Below are positions 10,984 through 34,539 of a DNA stretch of 64,000 nt, in pieces. Made by a program: the position numbers and the translations under genes. Below the pieces are notes generated by a model. It saw only the letters and a list, made by a program, of their open reading frames with translations. It searched no databases and had not been told where the DNA came from. Every line of letters starts with the position of its first letter. The stretch's first letter is position 1. The stretch is from positions 1 to 64,000 of the forward strand of contig QZKO01000018.1 of NCBI GenBank assembly GCA_003599505.1. The letters are read 5' to 3'. This DNA comes from Nitrospiraceae bacterium. Lineage in GTDB: Bacteria > Nitrospirota > Thermodesulfovibrionia > UBA6902.

Positions 10984-13900
10984 TTAACCGTCTTTGTTAA
11001 TCTGTGGCAAAAAACTGCATTTGTCCTTCACATACTCATATGACCCGTCGTTCAGCCACTTATCAAGCAGGGAAGGTTCTTTTAACTGCTGCCCTCGGTA
11101 TCTTGAAACCACGGTATAATTTACTTTCAAATCTTTTAACCCTGTCATGTCGCCCCATAATTTTTCGAACTGGGCTACAGGATAAACATCCTCATGGCCG
11201 CTTCCACGGACATGTTTCACTTCCTTGATTGTCACATAGACAGGCATCATTTTTTCAAGCCTGAGCACTGAATCGAGTATTATATCCTGGTTCTGTTTCC
11301 TGTTCTCTTCTTCAACAAGAACCCCTCTGTCCAGACCGAAATACCCGAGAAGGGAATCGATTGTGATCCAGTTAGTATTGGTGTTGTAAAGAGTCAATAT
11401 ATATTCGTCCTCTTCACGGGGGAGGGCCATGCCTTCAATAAGGCGGGTACGGCCGTTTATTTTTGCCAGCCCGCCGCCTGAATCTTCTATGCGCCTCGGC
11501 GTTACTTCAAAGGTCAAACAGGACTGTTTCCGAATATGCCGGCCCAGTATCACAGGGTCGATATACGCGCCCATTGTATCAATATTGTGGCAGAGCAGAT
11601 ATTTTAAACCCGGATTGTCTTTTATCATCCGCGACAGGACGCCGTTTTTTATCATATTCGGGATTTCGTGCCAATGTCCGGGGGGATTGAATCCGGGGAT
11701 GGACCCGTTTTCGCGGTAGTCTTCGCCTTCGCCTTTTGATTTGGCCCATTCAACAAGCGCTCTGTGCGCATCGTCCCGGACTTTCTGAACATTGTCCTCG
11801 AGTTTCTGACGCAGTTGCTCCTCCCGGTAAAAGCGGAGGTCCCTTTCCATTGGATAAACCCTTCGGGCTATTGATTTACCCGGGGAAAGATATATCCCGC
11901 CTTCGTAATTGAAGCTGTTGGATTTCTCGAGGAATCCCGCAACGGCATCATGTGTCAGGTAGCTTGTTGTGAAGACGTGTTGTATGCCGCGGCCGGACAG
12001 TTGCCCTGACTTTCTGCTTTTGGCAAGATGGACTTCAATGAACGTCCTGTATTTGCCGCCCATCTTAATGAAGGGGTTAATCGCTTTTACAACGGCAGCC
12101 CCGCGCGTCCATCTGCTGCCCATACCGCCCGCGAAAGTGACAACGGCGATCTCGTTGTTCCGGAGGGCGGACATGCCTGTTTCATAATAAATTCCGGATT
12201 CCGGATCTCGGATTTCGGATTTGAAATCCTCCTCCTCAAAATGGAAAATCTCATCATATGAAACATCCTCAATCTTTGTTGATAAAGGCAACCGGTTTTT
12301 AGCAAGGCCGATATCGCCTTTCTTCAGTAAAGACCTCATATGTTCATGAGATCTTGAATCGAATCCGTATTGTTTTTTGATTTCGTCTTCTGTTAATGGG
12401 ACAGAGAGTCGACCGTCTTTTTTTGGTAGGGGCAATTCATGAATTGCCCCTACATTGTCCTGATCCATCTCCGGCATCCTTGCGCCTTTCCCCTTCAGCA
12501 TCTTCGCGACAATGCCTTTATGGTTTATTTCAAAATCATACACAACCGGGTCTATTATGAAGGGCAGGGACGCGATGTATTTTTGTTTCAGTTCAAGCAT
12601 GATGCCGGAGACCCTGTCTTTAAAAACTTCCCTGATCTCCGGGGTCACGATAAAAGCCATTCCGCCCCCGGACATTCCTCCCAGCATGAGAAAGCCCATG
12701 TAATCTTCCCTGAACTCTTCTTTTACCTTTTCAATCAGATCTTCCGTGAAGGCGTTGTTTACCCATGGGATTACGTTCTGTATCGGGTCTTCCCAATCTT
12801 CTGTCGTAAGGCGGCCGAGCTCTTTCATGCTCCCTGTTTTCAATGCTTCAACGATCCTGTCGAACAACTGAATCCCTTTCAGACGGGCTTTCCATTCCTT
12901 ATCGTATTTCAGGAGATATTTTTCCGTCACCATCTCAAGAACAGGCCCGACGTCCTGGGAAATTCCGCCGTGCACAAGCACCATTGAGCCGAGGATTCTC
13001 CTCTCGACTTCTTCCGGGACCTCATCTTTCGTAAACACGTTGTGCTCGGGGAGCAGACACCCCCTGCTGACGCCGAATTCAGGGTCGCTTTCACGGGCCG
13101 GCTTTCCGGCAATCACTTTTATACCGGGCCATAGTCCCCCGGAGTCCTGCCAGCCTCCGCCCGACCCCCCGAGCCATTCGCCCAATATAGCTCGTGACGC
13201 CACAGTCCGTCTTTCTTCTCCGGTTAACGGGCCGGTCTGGTTTTTTATCTGACCGCTGAATCTCATCAGGCGGGTTATGACTGTTGACAGGAGGGTAGTG
13301 CTGACGGCGAGTCTCGATCCTTTTGGGATGTTATTTACTTTTGTCACTATCCCGATACCGCCTGGTTTACCTGATAACTTACGCAGCAGATCACGCAGAG
13401 AGAGGTCCCTGTTCTCAAAGCAGGGCGGGACAAGGCCCGAAGCCACAACCCCTGCTTTCAGCAACGAGAGATAATCATTACCGAAATTGAAAAGCTCCTT
13501 CAATGAGGAAATCTTCTTTGAGGTCTTTAAATCAACAGAGACAAGATGGATTACCGGTTCTTCAATGAAACGGCAATAGCATTCACACGGCGGTAATAAC
13601 GGTTTATCGCTGCCGTGAATTCCCAGATTTACCGAAAGGTTCACAACCCGCGCACCTTCCGGAAAATCCATTCCGAGAAAGAAGATGTCAGACCATCCGC
13701 TGTGAGAGGGGTCCAGCCTGACAGGCGACGCATCCATTCCAACCGGATACAGCCCTGTTTCAGGGTCCGGCGTGGTCAGCTCTTTACTGAAGGAATAAGG
13801 GTAATCTTCAATACCGTTGATATTAAAGAGAAGATGATTTTCCCTGCACTGACTGATGGAGAGCTTGACCTGGTCCAGAAGATAGTTGAAAGACAGGTTG

Positions 13901-14262
13901 TGATATGATTCCGCGACAGCGCTGAATACAGCCTGATTGGCATTATTTCTTATCGCTGAAAGATACACTTTTATTGATCCCTCAAAATCTCTTTCATACG
14001 CGGCCTTTACACCCTTGAAAGGGATTTCTCCATGTTGAAGTATATCCTTGGATAACTGGAGGTAATGTCCATAAATTACAGAAAGAAATAAAGAAGCTCT
14101 TACTTTATGATACAGGTTTTTGGAGGATTGCCTGAATTCTTCCAGCTCATGCGCTGCCGTAAGCAGTTCAGCGCTTTTTTTGTTCTGAAGAAGAACGTTT
14201 ATGGAACGGTTACGGATGGATTCATCATCACTGATTATCGTCTCGACAAGTTGATTGGACAT
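10984..14262 (-). CDS. fused GHMP-type sugar kinase / UTP-sugar uridylyltransferase
   Basis: A 1092-residue protein. Residues 1-190 are helical with no recognised motif. About 190-590 resemble the fucokinase/FKP branch of GHMP kinases: PPCECYCRF, IPKGSRLAVSTTLL (motif 2), GGSGGGWQDSGGL and GGMSGGGMAF (motif 3). About 690-1090 are UDPGP-like: VTFAGGMGSRWTRG followed by AVVKAINPF, then a sugar-binding CHNIDTMGAYIDP. The likely job is sugar phosphorylation followed by UTP activation. Motif 2 lacks the usual GLGTSS glycines, so kinase activity is uncertain. Two repeat-derived inserts lie between the modules (about residues 602-613 and 675-687). Bacteroides FKP has the reverse domain order. Confidence 0.78.
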   Translation of the reverse strand: MSNQLVETIISDDESIRNRSINVLLQNKKSAELLTAAHELEEFRQSSKNLYHKVRASLFLSVIYGHYLQLSKDILQHGEIPFKGVKAAYERDFEGSIKVYLSAIRNNANQAVFSAVAESYHNLSFNYLLDQVKLSISQCRENHLLFNINGIEDYPYSFSKELTTPDPETGLYPVGMDASPVRLDPSHSGWSDIFFLGMDFPEGARVVNLSVNLGIHGSDKPLLPPCECYCRFIEEPVIHLVSVDLKTSKKISSLKELFNFGNDYLSLLKAGVVASGLVPPCFENRDLSLRDLLRKLSGKPGGIGIVTKVNNIPKGSRLAVSTTLLSTVITRLMRFSGQIKNQTGPLTGEERRTVASRAILGEWLGGSGGGWQDSGGLWPGIKVIAGKPARESDPEFGVSRGCLLPEHNVFTKDEVPEEVERRILGSMVLVHGGISQDVGPVLEMVTEKYLLKYDKEWKARLKGIQLFDRIVEALKTGSMKELGRLTTEDWEDPIQNVIPWVNNAFTEDLIEKVKEEFREDYMGFLMLGGMSGGGMAFIVTPEIREVFKDRVSGIMLELKQKYIASLPFIIDPVVYDFEINHKGIVAKMLKGKGARMPEMDQDNVGAIHELPLPKKDGRLSVPLTEDEIKKQYGFDSRSHEHMRSLLKKGDIGLAKNRLPLSTKIEDVSYDEIFHFEEEDFKSEIRDPESGIYYETGMSALRNNEIAVVTFAGGMGSRWTRGAAVVKAINPFIKMGGKYRTFIEVHLAKSRKSGQLSGRGIQHVFTTSYLTHDAVAGFLEKSNSFNYEGGIYLSPGKSIARRVYPMERDLRFYREEQLRQKLEDNVQKVRDDAHRALVEWAKSKGEGEDYRENGSIPGFNPPGHWHEIPNMIKNGVLSRMIKDNPGLKYLLCHNIDTMGAYIDPVILGRHIRKQSCLTFEVTPRRIEDSGGGLAKINGRTRLIEGMALPREEDEYILTLYNTNTNWITIDSLLGYFGLDRGVLVEEENRKQNQDIILDSVLRLEKMMPVYVTIKEVKHVRGSGHEDVYPVAQFEKLWGDMTGLKDLKVNYTVVSRYRGQQLKEPSLLDKWLNDGSYEYVKDKCSFLPQINKDG
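12426..12453. repeat. perfect 28-bp palindrome inside the fusion gene
   Basis: The half-site GTAGGGGCAATTCA is followed by its exact complement. It is translated in frame as part of NVGAIHELPLP. It is related to the palindromes at 23016-23044 and 55518-55546, which share the outer GTAGGGGC...GCCCCTAC arms but have different centres. Confidence 0.85.
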
Positions 14263-26208: not shown

Positions 26209-26706
26209 TTACTTCGGCGCAAGGACCATGATCATGCGGTTGCCTTCCATTTTCGCAGGCTGCTCGATATTCGCGGCCAGTGAAAATTCTTCGATAATCC
26301 GGTTAAAAACCTTTTTACCGATCGACGCATGAACGATTTCCCTTCCTCTGAACATCATGGTGATTTTCGCCTTGTCTCCGTGTTCCAGAAATTTCTTTAT
26401 GTTCTTCATTTTGAAAAGCAGGTCGTGTTCATTGATCTGCGGCCTTACTTTTATCTCTTTTACAGTTATTGTCTTGCTTTTTGTTGAATGTTTTTTGCTC
26501 TGCTGGTAACGGTATTTTCCATAATCCATTACGCGGCATACAGGAGGCTGAGCGCCCGGAGCCACTTCAACAAGATCAAGGTCATGCTCCTGCGCGAGTT
26601 TTATGGCGTTCCTGACATCCATTATGCCCAATTGAGCGCCGTCATGGCCTATTACCCTGACTTCTCTGGCCCTGATCCATCTGTTTATTCTGAGTTCTTT
26701 TTCTAT
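26209..26706 (-). CDS. infC: translation initiation factor IF-3, probable AUA start
   Basis: A 165-residue IF-3. The N-domain begins [22 protein letters not shown] and the C-domain has [20 protein letters not shown] and [10 protein letters not shown]. There is no ATG, GTG or TTG before the conserved RINR block. AGGAGG (26717-26712) points to ATA at 26706 (5 bases away), or less well ATC at 26709. Rare start codons in infC are known to make IF-3 limit its own synthesis. ATA overlaps the thrS stop as ATAG, so the genes are tightly coupled. Confidence 0.92.
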
Positions 26707-28454
26707 GATTGCCTCCTGCCCGATATTCCATCTTTGAGAAATGCCGCGAGTTTCTCCACAGTCATTTCTCCGATATTTTCTCCGTTTCTTTTTCTTATAT
26801 TGACTGTATTGTTTTCCATTTCTTTGTCACCTATTATACACATATAGGGGGTTTTTAATACAGCGGCTTTTCTTATTTTATAGCCTATTTTCTCATTTTC
26901 TTCATCGGTGTCGACCCTGACGCCTTCAGCGATCAGAAAGTCATATATTCGCCTGCAATATTCTACATGTCTTTCGGAAATAGTCAATATGGAAATGTGC
27001 ACCGGCGAAAGCCATAGAGGGAACGCCCCGGCGTAATGCTCTATCAATATCCCGAAGAAACGCTCAAGAGACCCCATGAGCGCGCGGTGTATCATAATGG
27101 GCCTGTAATCTTTGCTGTCCGCGCCCCGGTATGTTATATCCAGCCGTTCCGGAATGTTAAAATCCACCTGAATGGTGCTGCACTGCCATTGCCTGCCGAG
27201 AGTATCTCTTACTTTAATGTCGATCTTCGGGCCGTAAAATACACCTTCGCCGGGGTCGATTTCATACTTCAGCCCCTTTTGTGAAAGCGCGTTCTCAAGC
27301 GCTCCGGTCGCCTTTTTCCATGCCGCGTCTGTTCCCACATATTTCTCAGGCCTTGTTGAAAGATAAATATCATAGTCGGAAAACCCGAATGTCTTCAGAA
27401 TGAATAATGTAAACTCCAGCACCCTTAAGACTTCATCTTCGATCTGGTCTTCCATGCAGAATATGTGAGCGTCGTCCTGGGTAAACCCTCTCACTCTGAG
27501 GAGACCGTGCAGCACGCCGGAGCGTTCGTACCTGTAAACGGTGCCGAGCTCTGCAAACCGCAGCGGCAGGTCCCTGTAGCTCCTTAGATGACTCTTGAAA
27601 ACAGATACATGGAAAGGACAGTTCATGGGTTTTATTTCATACTCCAGCCCTTCGATTTCCATGGGCGAATACATGTTCTCCTTATAAAAATCCACATGTC
27701 CTGTCTTTTTCCATAAATCGAGTTTTGCCATATGAGGAGTGTAAAGCACCTGATAGCCCGCCCTGTAATGTTCGTCCAGCCAGAAATTTTCAATAGACCT
27801 TCTGACGGCGGCGCCCCTTGGGTGCCAGAGCACCAGGCCCGGGCCTATGTCGTCATTCATGCTGAAAAGGTCGAGTTCCCTGCCGAGCCTCCTGTGGTCC
27901 CTCTTCCGGACTTCTTCAAGGAACTCAAGATGCTTCTTCAGCTCATCTTTTGTCGGAAACGAAACGCCGTAAATACGCTGGAGCATCTTGTTCTTCTCGT
28001 CACCCCGCCAGTAAGCGCCGGCAACGGACAGGAGTTTGAAGGCCCTGACCTTCCCGGTGGATTCAAGATGAGGCCCCCGGCAGAGGTCAATAAAATTGTC
28101 CTCTTCATAGAGTGATACGGTTTCGTCCGCGATCTCATTTATCAGTTGAACCTTATATTCCTCACCGCGCTCCCTGAAAAACCTTGCCGCTTCTTCTTTC
28201 GGCAATTCTTTTTTTATAAACGGTTTGTTCGCTTTTATGATTTCCTTCATTTTTTCTTCGATGCGGGGCAGGTCTTCCTGTGTAAAGGCATGACCGCTGT
28301 CGAAATCATAATAGAAGCCGTCAGGGATGGCGGGGCCTATGGCAAGTCTTGTATCCGGAAAAAGCTCTTTAACGGCATGCGCCATAATGTGGGAAGTGCT
28401 GTGGCGGTACGTGTTGAGAAATTCCTTATCGTTTTGCGGCTCTTCTAAAATAAT
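26703..28454 (-). CDS. thrS: threonyl-tRNA synthetase lacking the TGS domain, probable AUU start
   Basis: A 583-residue class II synthetase. It begins directly at the editing-domain motif YRHSTSHIMAHAV, then the core (HPRGAAVRRSIENF, MNCPFHVSVF) and a C-terminal anticodon domain. The N-terminal TGS and N1 part (about 60 residues) is missing. The in-frame stop is TGA at 28457-28455; the only ATG downstream (28385) would cut the conserved helix and has no ribosome site. AAGGAGG (28467-28461) stands 6 bases before ATT at 28454, so AUU is the likely start. The TDO-like gene ends 35 bases upstream. Confidence 0.9.
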   Translation of the reverse strand: MILEEPQNDKEFLNTYRHSTSHIMAHAVKELFPDTRLAIGPAIPDGFYYDFDSGHAFTQEDLPRIEEKMKEIIKANKPFIKKELPKEEAARFFRERGEEYKVQLINEIADETVSLYEEDNFIDLCRGPHLESTGKVRAFKLLSVAGAYWRGDEKNKMLQRIYGVSFPTKDELKKHLEFLEEVRKRDHRRLGRELDLFSMNDDIGPGLVLWHPRGAAVRRSIENFWLDEHYRAGYQVLYTPHMAKLDLWKKTGHVDFYKENMYSPMEIEGLEYEIKPMNCPFHVSVFKSHLRSYRDLPLRFAELGTVYRYERSGVLHGLLRVRGFTQDDAHIFCMEDQIEDEVLRVLEFTLFILKTFGFSDYDIYLSTRPEKYVGTDAAWKKATGALENALSQKGLKYEIDPGEGVFYGPKIDIKVRDTLGRQWQCSTIQVDFNIPERLDITYRGADSKDYRPIMIHRALMGSLERFFGILIEHYAGAFPLWLSPVHISILTISERHVEYCRRIYDFLIAEGVRVDTDEENEKIGYKIRKAAVLKTPYMCIIGDKEMENNTVNIRKRNGENIGEMTVEKLAAFLKDGISGRRQS

Positions 28455-28489
28455 TCAATACCTCCTTCGGGACCCTGCCCTGTTCCGTG

Positions 28490-29863
28490 TCAAAGTATAG
28501 CAGAAGAAGCTTTGCCTTTTCCAGATGTTACCAAATTATTCCAACGCGCAGCCTTTACCGCGATGAGCGCGGGAAACCGTACGGTCAGCGTCTGCGAAAA
28601 ATCGAGAAAGGGCGCGCCGCTGCCCGCGGTCCCGGGGACCTCTCCGAGCCTGCGCTTCACCACGTGAAGGTGCGCAAGAAGAAACCCTTCCGACAATCGC
28701 CTGTCGGCCTCGATGAGCGCGTCAAAGACATCCCTGAAATGAATGGTCCGCGCGTCCGCACAGAGGAACCGGGCAGCCCCGCACGCCGGGCCGTACCGCG
28801 CCCTTCTTGCGTTCTCATCGCGCACGGCCCGGGACCAATCCTCTTTGAACACCCTCCCCTTCCTTTCCAGCAATGCCATTTCGTCTTCCGTCAACCGGGG
28901 CGACAGATCGCGTTTTTTTCTGATCCTTTCGGTTCCCTCCCTCATCCTCTCCCTGAATGCGTCCTCCATATCACGGAACGATATCTCGTCGTCAGGAAGC
29001 ATGGGGACCGGGCACGTCGGGTCAGTAGTCAAACGTCCGAGCTCATCTATGGACGATATTCGGGTGAGCATATCATGCGCCAGTTTGTCCAACTCCGCAA
29101 CCGGCGCATATGGGCTACTGTGAGGCGGCGTGGCTATATCAGCGCCCTCCCGCAGGATTAACCCGTCGACTAATCTTACAAGGCCCGCGTTTTCCGACTC
29201 TGCCGCAGCCCGCATGATACCTGCGTCGTCCATTCCGAGGTAGTTCTTTAAATAAAAATCCGCGGGGAACAGCCGTATTGCGAGCAGCGGCGATTTGCCG
29301 AGGGCCCTCTGTATGAGCCGGAACTGGGCGGACTGAAACCCGCTTGCGGCCGCGAGATTAGGCCTGAATTTTTCCGTAAACTCCCGGTTGTCGAACAATT
29401 CATCAGTCGCGAGATACCCCATAATCGATGGGACCATGCGCTTGCATGAATGCCTGATCCGCGCCGCGGATGTACTCGCGGGTCTCCAGAAATCCTCAGC
29501 CCCTGCCGCGTTATCACCTGTTCCGAGGCCTGTAAGACGGAAAAGCTCCCGGCCTTCAGCCTCCATGACTGCGCGGAATGTGGCGGCAATCACCCGGAGA
29601 TCGAAGATCATCTGCCTGAATACCAGTTCAAACATCTGGTGCGCGATGATGAATATCCGCTCATCAGGGGCGCGCGAGGTCGGCGCCTGTGCGCTCAGAA
29701 GCGTATCGAGTCTCAGATACCGGTGATAGGAGAGCAGCCTCTTGCCGTCGAATTCGGGATTGACTTCGACAGTGCCCTTATCAGGATCGTCACGGATCGT
29801 TTCGCCCCTCTGTGCCGGGTCGACTGAAAAGCACCACCAGTTCGCATCAGGCCGCGGATTCAT
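28490..29863 (-). CDS. tryptophan 2,3-dioxygenase superfamily haem enzyme
   Basis: A 457-residue protein with TDO motifs: YHRYLRLDTLLSAQ (about residue 45), IIAHQMFELVFRQ holding the distal His (about 75), GFQSAQFRLIQRALG (about 170) and the proximal-haem-His region HLHVVKRRLGEVPGTAGS near 420. It would oxidise an indole such as tryptophan. It is longer than common bacterial TDO (about 280) and has GTAGS instead of GTGGS. It starts inside the aminotransferase stop (4-base overlap). No kynureninase or formamidase is nearby, so simple tryptophan degradation is not the obvious role. The DNA is visibly GC-richer than the flanks. Confidence 0.82.
   Translation of the reverse strand: MNPRPDANWWCFSVDPAQRGETIRDDPDKGTVEVNPEFDGKRLLSYHRYLRLDTLLSAQAPTSRAPDERIFIIAHQMFELVFRQMIFDLRVIAATFRAVMEAEGRELFRLTGLGTGDNAAGAEDFWRPASTSAARIRHSCKRMVPSIMGYLATDELFDNREFTEKFRPNLAAASGFQSAQFRLIQRALGKSPLLAIRLFPADFYLKNYLGMDDAGIMRAAAESENAGLVRLVDGLILREGADIATPPHSSPYAPVAELDKLAHDMLTRISSIDELGRLTTDPTCPVPMLPDDEISFRDMEDAFRERMREGTERIRKKRDLSPRLTEDEMALLERKGRVFKEDWSRAVRDENARRARYGPACGAARFLCADARTIHFRDVFDALIEADRRLSEGFLLAHLHVVKRRLGEVPGTAGSGAPFLDFSQTLTVRFPALIAVKAARWNNLVTSGKGKASSAIL
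28494..28502 (-). promoter_or_regulatory. extended -10 box for thrS within the end of the TDO-like gene
   Basis: On the reverse strand TGCTATACT lies 40 bases before the thrS start at 28454. It would give thrS-infC-rpmI-rplT their own promoter, independent of the TDO cassette upstream. Confidence 0.45.
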
Positions 29864-31059
29864 CGCGCCCGTCCTCTGAGGGCTTCTTGCAGCGCCGCGG
29901 CGAACCCGGGCAGCGCGCGTTCGACCATCCCGTCATCAGCGGTGAGGGAGAGACGAAAATATCCGGGGATGTCCATGACGGATCCGGGGATGCAAAAAAT
30001 ATTGTATCCGGCAAGCATCTTCACAAAGACAAAGTCATCGGCAATCGGTGAACGCACGATCACGTAGAACGTGCCTTCCGGCATGTTCGTCTCATATCCC
30101 ATTGCCTGAAGTGCTGAAACGAGACGGTCCCTTCGCTGTTGAAGCCGGCTGATATCGATCGATATCCGGTCCAGATCGGCCAACGCGTGCTGAAGCAGGG
30201 CGTTGGGGAATGCCCAGCCCGCGAGCATCTGAAAACCGTAGAGCGCCCTCCGCATGTCTTCCCGGTCCGGCATCTCCGGCGGCAGCGCGATGAAGCCTAT
30301 CCTCTGGCCGGGGGTAAGAAGGACCTTTCCATAGGTATAAACCAGAAACGACCGGGGATAGAATGCCGTAGGGCTGTGGTATGCCCGTCCGTCGAAGATG
30401 ATCCGGCTGTATGCCTCATCGGAGATCAGATAGACTGGCCGCCCTCCCCGGCCGGATGCCTCCGTGAGCATGGCGGCGAGGGCCTTGAGCGTTTCAGGAG
30501 GATAGATCTTGCCCGTAGGATTATGAGGCGAATTCACGATTATCGCCCTGGTCCTCTGCGTCAGCGCGCCGCCGATTGCATTCAGGTCCAGATCGAGCGT
30601 CGTCATGTCGGCTTTCACGCGCACGGGCGCACCGCCGGCGAGCATGATCATGCCTTCGTACTGAAACCACGGCGGGCTGATGAATATAACCTCGTCGCCC
30701 TGTTCGATGATCACATTTAACACCACATTGAGAGCGGCGGTCGATCCGTTGGTGAGGAAGATGTCCTTTTCCTCAAAGTTCACACCGCGCCATCTTCGAA
30801 GAGATTTACAAACAACGGCGCGCGATTCAGGCTCATTCATCTTATAGGTATACCACCATAGGTTCCCCGGCTCCACATGTCTCCTGAGCGCGTCCACGAA
30901 CGCGGGTATCGGCGCCTCGTGCGGATTGCCCAGGGTGAAATCGCATACAGACAAATCATTCGAATGGCGCAACCATTCTGTCTCCTCCAATATCCTCTGG
31001 AGAGGAGCAAGGGCATCGAGCGCGGCCCGCGTCTTTGCGGTCAGTGACGTAGAATGCAT
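29860..31059 (-). CDS. fold-type I PLP aminotransferase (class I/II)
   Basis: A 399-residue PLP enzyme. Seen in order: TNGSTAALNVVLN (cofactor phosphate loop), NSPHNPTGKIYPPE (about residue 175), SDEAYSRIIFD (Asp/Tyr, about 215) and TYGKVLLTPGQRIGF with the Schiff-base Lys (about 247). The substrate is likely an aromatic or other amino acid; in this context tryptophan or kynurenine is attractive (inference). It lies 22 bases after the methyltransferase gene and overlaps the TDO-like gene by 4 bases, so the three form one unit. Confidence 0.88.
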   Translation of the reverse strand: MHSTSLTAKTRAALDALAPLQRILEETEWLRHSNDLSVCDFTLGNPHEAPIPAFVDALRRHVEPGNLWWYTYKMNEPESRAVVCKSLRRWRGVNFEEKDIFLTNGSTAALNVVLNVIIEQGDEVIFISPPWFQYEGMIMLAGGAPVRVKADMTTLDLDLNAIGGALTQRTRAIIVNSPHNPTGKIYPPETLKALAAMLTEASGRGGRPVYLISDEAYSRIIFDGRAYHSPTAFYPRSFLVYTYGKVLLTPGQRIGFIALPPEMPDREDMRRALYGFQMLAGWAFPNALLQHALADLDRISIDISRLQQRRDRLVSALQAMGYETNMPEGTFYVIVRSPIADDFVFVKMLAGYNIFCIPGSVMDIPGYFRLSLTADDGMVERALPGFAAALQEALRGRAR

Positions 31060-31081
31060 GCATACCTCCGTATTCTGTATT

Positions 31082-32245
31082 TCAATCTGCCTTTTCCCCG
31101 GGCTTCTTCCCGGAGACGATATGCCAATATCCGAATGTCGGTGTCACCTGTATTTCCGTAAAACCGGCCTCTCTCAGCATTGTCGAGAGCTCGCTTCCGG
31201 AAAACTGCTGCCCCCGGGTCCAGAGAAGCATCGAGACGTTGTATCCGGCAACGGTAAACGGCCCGGCCTTGTCATCGTTGAAGAGCATTTCATGAATAAT
31301 GATGCGCCCTCCTCTGTCAAGGGCCGCAAAGCTCTTGGCCGTGAGAAAGCGGCACTCTTCAGGCGTGAAGTCGTGGTAGATGTCCGAGTAGAAATGCAGG
31401 TCTGCCTTTGGAAAAGGCCCGTTCCACATATCGACGGCACACGTGCCGATGCGTTCTTTCAACCGGAAGCGCGCGATATATTCATCGGCGACTTCGCACA
31501 CCGGCGACAGGTCGAGGACAAAGGCCCTGAGTGACGGCCACCGCAGCGCCGCTCCGATGGAGTGCGCGCCTGAACCGCCGCCGATATCGAGCATCAAGCT
31601 GTGCTGCGACAGATCGATTGCGTCCGGCCACGCAAGTGCGGGGGCCATACTGTGGCTGTGCATCATGCGGGTAAAAACGCGGGCGCGCTCCGCCTGCGAC
31701 TCATTGGTTATATACAGGTCCTCTCCGCCGTAGATCTGCGGCATGTCGGTCAGCGCCGCCCTCTTCAGGCTTTCAAGCGTCAGCACGCTGTTAGCGATCG
31801 ATACGTCGAAAAATGTGCCGAAATAGGTAGGGCTGCTTTTGACAAGATATAGTTCAGATGCCGGAGTCAGGGTGAACCGGCCGTTCTGATAATCGAGTAG
31901 TCCGAGGGAGCGGCAGGCAAGGACCAGGGCTTCGGCAGGACGGGCAGGGACGCGCAGCCCGTCACAAATGTCTTTCAGGGAACGCGGCTTCTCTGACAGG
32001 AGTGAAAACAGACCGAGGGAGTGCGCAAGAAGTACGGCCTGATAGCCGTAGATGCCCATGACAATGTCATAAAACAGGCGGTCATCGGTAGCAGGCTTAC
32101 TTGTGCCGGCGGAGTCAACAGGCTTCAACAAAGACGACCTCCTTCCTTTAAATATCTTATCAGGAATTGCCTTCGAGTCAAGCCCGCGCAATATGGGAGA
32201 TAAAACACGCGTAAGGAACTGCAGCAGAAGGTCAAAAGCGGACAA
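31082..32245 (-). CDS. O-methyltransferase, Methyltransf_2 family
   Basis: A 387-residue SAM enzyme. An N-terminal winged-helix dimerisation domain (about residues 50-150, SLGLFSLLSEKPRSLKDI) precedes a Rossmann domain with LMLDIGGGSGAHS (about 215), DLSPVCEVADEY and SDIYHDFTPEEC, which holds the usual catalytic His. Relatives methylate phenols, hydroxyindoles or enols of small aromatic metabolites. The reading frame starts with TTG at 32245 without a clear ribosome site, so the exact start is unsure. First gene of the three-gene cassette. Confidence 0.85.
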   Translation of the reverse strand: MSAFDLLLQFLTRVLSPILRGLDSKAIPDKIFKGRRSSLLKPVDSAGTSKPATDDRLFYDIVMGIYGYQAVLLAHSLGLFSLLSEKPRSLKDICDGLRVPARPAEALVLACRSLGLLDYQNGRFTLTPASELYLVKSSPTYFGTFFDVSIANSVLTLESLKRAALTDMPQIYGGEDLYITNESQAERARVFTRMMHSHSMAPALAWPDAIDLSQHSLMLDIGGGSGAHSIGAALRWPSLRAFVLDLSPVCEVADEYIARFRLKERIGTCAVDMWNGPFPKADLHFYSDIYHDFTPEECRFLTAKSFAALDRGGRIIIHEMLFNDDKAGPFTVAGYNVSMLLWTRGQQFSGSELSTMLREAGFTEIQVTPTFGYWHIVSGKKPGEKAD

Positions 32246-34332: not shown

Positions 34333-34539
34333 ATGAAGAAATACTCATCAATAATCTTTGTTTTCCTTTTGCTCTTTCCCTTTACCATTAAAGCTCAGGA
34401 AGGTGTTCGGCAAACAAAGAAACCGGCCCCGACAGAAAGGTCCGAGTTGCGGTTTGTGATTTATGTAATAAGCGGAGGCAGGAAACCGGGCGGGTCGTTC
34501 AGCTCCGTCAATGAAGCTTTCACGCCTCCCCGTCCCTGA
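34333..34539 (+). CDS. possible small exported peptide or gene fragment
   Basis: A 68-residue frame with a clear signal-peptide-like start (KKYSSIIFVFLLLFPFTIKAQ), then a Pro-rich stretch and no domain. It ends 4 bases before the pirin start. It may be the head of a decayed exported protein, given remnants on both sides. No strong ribosome site is seen. Confidence 0.3.
   Translation: MKKYSSIIFVFLLLFPFTIKAQEGVRQTKKPAPTERSELRFVIYVISGGRKPGGSFSSVNEAFTPPRP

Follow-up and report, generated by a model that had tools for sequence, protein, structure and literature searches.

We analysed a 64-kb window (the whole stretch of DNA under study, from contig QZKO01000018.1 of a Nitrospiraceae bacterium of groundwater type, genome G000) in which three minus-strand genes at 28490-32245 form a tight operon just before thrS. 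The operon runs from a methyltransferase through an aminotransferase to a tryptophan 2,3-dioxygenase (TDO)-like haem enzyme. The most economical account of these three gene types, which we put forward tentatively, is a horizontally acquired mini-pathway to a tryptophan-derived, O-methylated quinoline acid. The first-pass annotation had proposed an unusual tryptophan-type cassette resembling the maremycin and streptonigrin pathways; the secondary-metabolite type was upheld, whereas the likeness to those two pathways was not. Its description of the genes themselves proved accurate, including their families, which Pfam supported, their open reading frames (ORFs; 28490-29863, 29860-31059 and 31082-32245), the 22-base gap between the methyltransferase and aminotransferase ORFs (31060-31081) and the 4-base ATGA overlap between the aminotransferase and TDO-like ORFs (29860-29863).

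Enzyme families and active-site residues

The TDO-like protein passed the cut-off of the Trp_dioxygenase family PF03301 (67 bits against 34.9, 2.5e-18), and profile-profile comparison matched this family at 98.5% over residues 26-202. In an alignment with seven ordinary bacterial TDOs, the key haem and substrate residues were shared: Y46, Y49, F71, H75, R167, S174-G175-F176, R182, H398, G411-T412 and G416. Both haem-site histidines that the first-pass annotation had singled out, the distal H75 and the axial H398, are thus kept at the sequence level. Specifically, R167 and R182 correspond to R144 and R159 of human TDO, and A173-S174-G175 of the PASG loop is retained. The PASG/GTGGS loops, as opposed to DATG/SLGGR, constitute the main active-site difference between human TDO and MarE, the maremycin enzyme; the amino group of the substrate is held by the GTGGS Thr, and replacement of the last Ser of this loop by Ala had no visible effect with L-Trp (PMC11904535, PMC12312684). 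Since the loops of the cassette protein are AASG and GTAGS, in which Ala and Ser of PASG and Thr and Ser of GTGGS are preserved, it falls by sequence on the TDO side and not on the MarE side. The GTAGS motif had been flagged earlier as a peculiarity; it is present, but the change is minor. The unusual length of the protein is real (457 against about 285 amino acids in bacterial TDOs) and is mainly due to one insertion of roughly 100 residues within 204-390, which separates the ASGFQS region from the axial-His helix.

The methyltransferase matched Methyltransf_2 (PF00891, 1.5e-29) and a Dimerisation domain (PF08100), and its nearest solved structures were 5i2h, DSYB, RedM, SibL and ASMT. Its YHDF motif aligns with LHDW of 5i2h, indicating that the ASMT-type His-Asp pair is present. 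In ASMT this catalytic pair is H255-D256, and it is absent from the C-methyltransferase SibL (PMC4426599), which has Val-Ile at the aligned positions. In addition, the SibL substrate residues Y288, D292 and Y295 align with T, Y and S, while Y134 is kept. Because the His-Asp pair is present and three SibL substrate residues are replaced, O-methylation is more likely than C-methylation on sequence grounds.

The aminotransferase belongs to Aminotran_1_2 (PF00155, 1.8e-39) and lies near the NF005305 group, below its cut-off (333.7 bits against 376). Its nearest PDB entry was 3ele; kynurenine aminotransferases matched more weakly, among many fold-type I relatives.

A putative quinoline route and its competitors

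In the proposed route, the TDO-like haem enzyme would use O2 to cleave the C2-C3 bond of tryptophan, or of a ring-substituted tryptophan, yielding an N-formylkynurenine, whose formyl group would either leave spontaneously or be removed by a housekeeping amidase. Spontaneous loss of this group has precedent (PMC9962454, PMC4052310). The aminotransferase would then take off the alpha-amino group, and ring closure of the alpha-keto product onto its aryl amine would yield kynurenic acid (4-hydroxyquinoline-2-carboxylate). Finally, the methyltransferase would methylate the phenolic oxygen, giving for example 4-methoxyquinoline-2-carboxylate. The substrates, the reaction order and the product are inferred from sequence; in this order, the product of each enzyme is acceptable as a substrate of the next, and kynurenic acid suits an O-methyltransferase because it offers a free phenolic oxygen.

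The closest parallel, likened by gene types, is the 3-hydroxyquinaldic acid route of TioF/TioG (thiocoraline) and san9/san8 (sandramycin), in which ring opening by a TDO-family enzyme is likewise followed by an aminotransferase to give a quinoline-2-carboxylate. Hydroxytryptophan is converted to 3,4-dihydroxyquinaldic acid by TioF/TioG, and for sandramycin the cluster provides quinaldic acid with TioF- and TioG-like enzymes, no TioL/TioM and no formamidase gene (PMC9962454, PMC4052310), the last being lacking from the cassette as well. These systems differ in that they act on beta-hydroxytryptophan and feed a nonribosomal peptide synthetase (NRPS), whereas the cassette operon has no P450, reductase, AMP ligase or NRPS gene and does carry a methyltransferase. 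By analogy, this quinaldic-acid route appears a better model than maremycin.

Several points weigh against the proposed route. The TDO-like protein scored 70.7 bits on the TDO equivalog TIGR03036, far under its cut-off of 390.7, and its identity to ordinary TDOs did not exceed 31%. FLLAH stands in place of WRxRH ahead of the axial His, and the Arg lost corresponds to R325 of human TDO; the human R325A variant formed normal amounts of N-formylkynurenine from L-Trp and more monooxygenated product from an amino-free probe. A structure predicted from an eight-row alignment was too poor for judging the haem or indole pocket (mean predicted local distance difference test score, pLDDT, 40.7), and a Foldseek search with this model ranked TDOs first and MarE 37th with poor TM-scores, giving weak support at most. 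As for the partner enzymes, relatives of the aminotransferase with 43-49% identity are found by themselves on plasmids and nothing in the sequences ties this family to kynurenine, while enzymes of the Methyltransf_2 family take very varied substrates. In favour of the route, neither a Cyclase-type formamidase (PF04199) nor a kynureninase (TIGR01814) was found in either carrier genome, G000 or its relative G002 (described below), other formamidase families not having been searched. The lack of both enzymes, already remarked on for the cassette in the first-pass annotation, means that kynurenine would not drain to anthranilate.

Evidence for O2 use is incomplete for G000, in which we found a weak cytochrome-bd-like match, whereas G002 has a strong oxidase match. 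A heme-copper oxidase match in G000 was considered as a sign of O2 respiration and rejected, as it scored very poorly against the oxidase equivalogs and adjoins a cytochrome c gene, as in nitric oxide reductases. This locus (L041, G000:C48:14500-18500) resembles a nitric oxide reductase pair.

Among the alternatives, the substrate of the cassette might be a different aromatic amino acid or an externally supplied compound, in degradation or in an unrelated assembly, the TDO-like enzyme having given up tryptophan. We consider this doubtful, yet to be taken seriously: the insertion, the missing WRxRH motif and the low identity would fit it, as would the separate occurrence elsewhere of aminotransferase and methyltransferase relatives, but the TDO residues for the alpha-carboxylate, the alpha-amino group and the indole NH are kept, and dN/dS is low for the three genes together. 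It is also unlikely that a separate long branch of haem-dependent aromatic oxygenases begins with the TDO-like protein, which, with its altered proximal side (FLLAH) and about 100 extra residues, would act on modified or deaminated tryptophan in place of tryptophan and, with the aminotransferase and O-methyltransferase, yield a metabolite of unfamiliar type. Compared with canonical TDOs, the protein differs in its divergence, its long insertion, FLLAH, GTAGS and its separation from kynurenine-pathway genes.

An order as in maremycin (MarE with MarG/H/I) or streptonigrin (StnR/K3/Q1) would start with the aminotransferase forming indolepyruvate, followed by methylation of the beta-carbon, restoration of the amino acid by the aminotransferase and monooxygenation of beta-methyltryptophan by the TDO-like enzyme to a 2-oxindole or pyrroloindoline. 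The same broad enzyme types are involved (TDO superfamily, aminotransferase, methyltransferase; PMC4742848), and (2S,3R)-beta-methyltryptophan can be made by StnQ1 and StnR on their own, the cupin epimerase not being needed (PMC4742848). The change to FLLAH, which alters residues near the haem, could also point this way, given the raised monooxygenation of an amino-free substrate by human R325A. In contrast, the distinguishing features of these pathways were unmatched at the level tested. The loops are not DATG/SLGGR, the methyltransferase carries the O-methyltransferase His-Asp pair where these pathways use a C-methyltransferase, and no cupin epimerase gene, which the full form needs (PMC4742848), lies in the operon, the pirin gene at 34511 being apart and on the other strand. 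MarE also ranked below TDOs in the comparison with the low-confidence model. The analogy therefore appears weak, and we regard this reading as quite improbable.

A C-methylated building block of the 3-hydroxykynurenine type, as in sibiromycin or actinomycin, is very improbable. SibL is among the nearest solved structures of the methyltransferase (104.6 bits), a D-L-Y triplet aligns with SibL D132/Y134, and SibL, AcmI and AcmL share the methyltransferase family and a tryptophan-derived context; however, the cassette enzyme does not keep their substrate-binding Tyr/Asp set intact and has the His-Asp pair missing from SibL (PMC4426599), and the cassette has no kynurenine 3-monooxygenase. A variant of ordinary tryptophan catabolism through kynurenine to anthranilate is hardly credible, since membership of the TDO family speaks for it but the enzymes lacking from both carrier genomes contradict it unless divergent replacements exist, and the partner of the TDO-like gene is a methyltransferase.

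Actinomycetes with large NRPS clusters are the best-known source of quinoline and oxindole chemistry built on tryptophan. Its occurrence in uncultured Nitrospirota as three enzymes on their own would amount to a compact pathway that can be tested heterologously, and the divergent TDO-like enzyme would offer a natural variant for the question of mono- versus dioxygenation in haem aromatic oxygenases.

Distribution and horizontal transfer of the operon

The same operon was found directly upstream of thrS in a second genome of the genus, G002 (JACRHD010000026.1, a Nitrospirae groundwater metagenome bin). It had no counterpart in the other eight genus members, in which thrS is present with other genes upstream. 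The TDO-like gene occurred in 2 out of 47 genomes of the order, these two carriers, and six further TDO matches in a 396-genome sample of the phylum were ordinary TDOs of about 285 amino acids. Besides its own genome, the aminotransferase went unmatched at 1e-60 across 198 genomes of the phylum, a sample that leaves G002 outside, and methyltransferase relatives there reached at most 33% identity. Outside Nitrospirota, relatives were sampled from plasmid records and by a single scan that used strict peptide patterns, and wider occurrence is possible. Aminotransferase relatives (43-49% identity) were present on cyanobacterial and rhizobial plasmids, and methyltransferase relatives (up to 53% identity, Nostoc) on plasmids of other phyla, each without the other two genes. 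The wider genome scan, with two such patterns, gave only the G002 copy, and more distant relatives elsewhere may escape these patterns. No cassette relative was found in the viral contigs scanned, PHROGs held no match for the TDO-like protein or the methyltransferase, and the literature offered no direct match for a bacterial set of TDO, aminotransferase and O-methyltransferase. Because the plasmid relatives occur apart and matches in the phylum are few, the trio is, judging from these sequences, a rare combination and not a widespread conserved set.

On two plasmids of Nostoc sp. C052 (L046 and L047), an aminotransferase of 48-49% identity has an AIPR-family gene upstream, and on L047 both adjoin a vanadium-nitrogenase cluster. 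In G002 alone, the region upstream of the operon (L003:12793-16224) carries genes for a LuxE-type acyl-protein synthetase and a B12-binding radical SAM protein that are not shared with the window.

As the first-pass annotation had noticed, the cassette is richer in guanine and cytosine (GC) than its neighbours. When compared to the other window genes, GC was 0.578/0.576/0.563 against a mean of 0.488 ± 0.026 and third-position GC (GC3) 0.657/0.682/0.668 against 0.568 ± 0.048, with a moderately raised codon-usage distance (0.158-0.169). Divergence at fourfold sites between window and G002 copies was 0.286, 0.281 and 0.329 for the three cassette genes, as against 0.523 for thrS, 0.468 for pheS, 0.631 for pheT and 0.573 for the gene at 10984-14262, and for the TDO-like gene and the aminotransferase gene the 95% bootstrap intervals were clear of those of all four chromosomal genes. 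Synonymous divergence (dS) gave the same picture (0.41-0.47 against 1.1-2.7). The ratio of nonsynonymous to synonymous divergence (dN/dS) was 0.12-0.24, showing that all three cassette genes are under purifying selection. In thrS, the two carriers were no nearer to each other than to the rest of the genus. Atypical composition, patchy presence and synonymous divergence discordant with core genes thus agree with the transfer that had been suspected, and fit an acquisition that postdates the separation of the two carrier species rather than descent from a genus ancestor.

The shared position suggests either a single insertion that recombination carried to the other genome afterwards or a site that is preferred for insertion. 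No complete empty site could be demonstrated, since the DNA preceding thrS is different in each member of the genus and only the thrS-side junction was comparable, in cassette-free G008; at this junction, the sequence common to the window and G008 begins at TTGACACGGAA, where the window has the TDO-like stop codon. We found no convincing flanking repeats or tRNA as an integration signature. A recombination tract extending into thrS was also considered and rejected, as third-position identity was low throughout, with no clear extended stretch of low divergence at the 5′ end.

Gene starts, thrS leader and neighbouring features

The coordinates of the operon and its anchor are collected in Table 1. 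The methyltransferase start at 32245 given in the first-pass annotation probably lies too far upstream. G002 has the identical start, a 348-amino-acid frame behind a conserved AAGGAGG, and the DNA similarity between the two operons stops about 17 bases upstream of TTG 32128; the latter is therefore most likely the true start. Promoter-like sites across the region numbered 7 against 4.2 ± 2.0 expected, which is not clearly above chance.

Table 1. Features of the cassette and of its junction with thrS in the window
Feature	Coordinates	Strand	Evidence
Methyltransf_2-family S-adenosylmethionine (SAM) methyltransferase, predicted O-methyltransferase, 348 amino acids, first operon gene	31082..32128	-	PF00891 and PF08100; start common to G002
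Fold-type I pyridoxal phosphate (PLP) aminotransferase, 399 amino acids, NCBIfam NF005305-like	29860..31059	-	PF00155; NF005305; nearest PDB 3ele
Long divergent TDO-family haem enzyme, 457 amino acids	28490..29863	-	PF03301; conserved residues
thrS, chromosomal neighbour and anchor for the insertion site, outside the pathway	26703..28385	-	TIGR00418, 737 bits; present in 10/10 genus genomes
Possible operon promoter, TTGACT-16-TAAGAT, extended TG	32154..32181	-	Consensus match only
Junction: TDO-like stop codon inside TTGACACGGAA, start of the thrS leader, also present in cassette-free G008	28449..28493	-	Three-way junction alignment

Within the 3′ end of the TDO-like gene, a promoter-like TGGAAA-18-TATACT with an extended TG lies on the minus strand at 28494-28523. 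Because this site is kept in G002, whose TDO-like frame is shorter at this end, and is absent from cassette-free G008, thrS may be expressed from within the cassette in the two carriers. The thrS frame has an in-frame stop at 28455-28457, its editing motif HSTSH is encoded ahead of the first ATG (28385) and there is no room for an N-terminal TGS domain. Given the stop and the position of HSTSH, initiation seems to occur at a non-standard ATT codon in the 28449-28454 region (ATA in L031), behind a strong Shine-Dalgarno sequence; this start region is conserved across the genus (L003, L024-L031). Elsewhere in the window, a 217-amino-acid ORF at 38218-38871 matches both MerR_1 and HicB_lk_antitox, an unusual pairing that may reflect a fusion or an ORF artefact.

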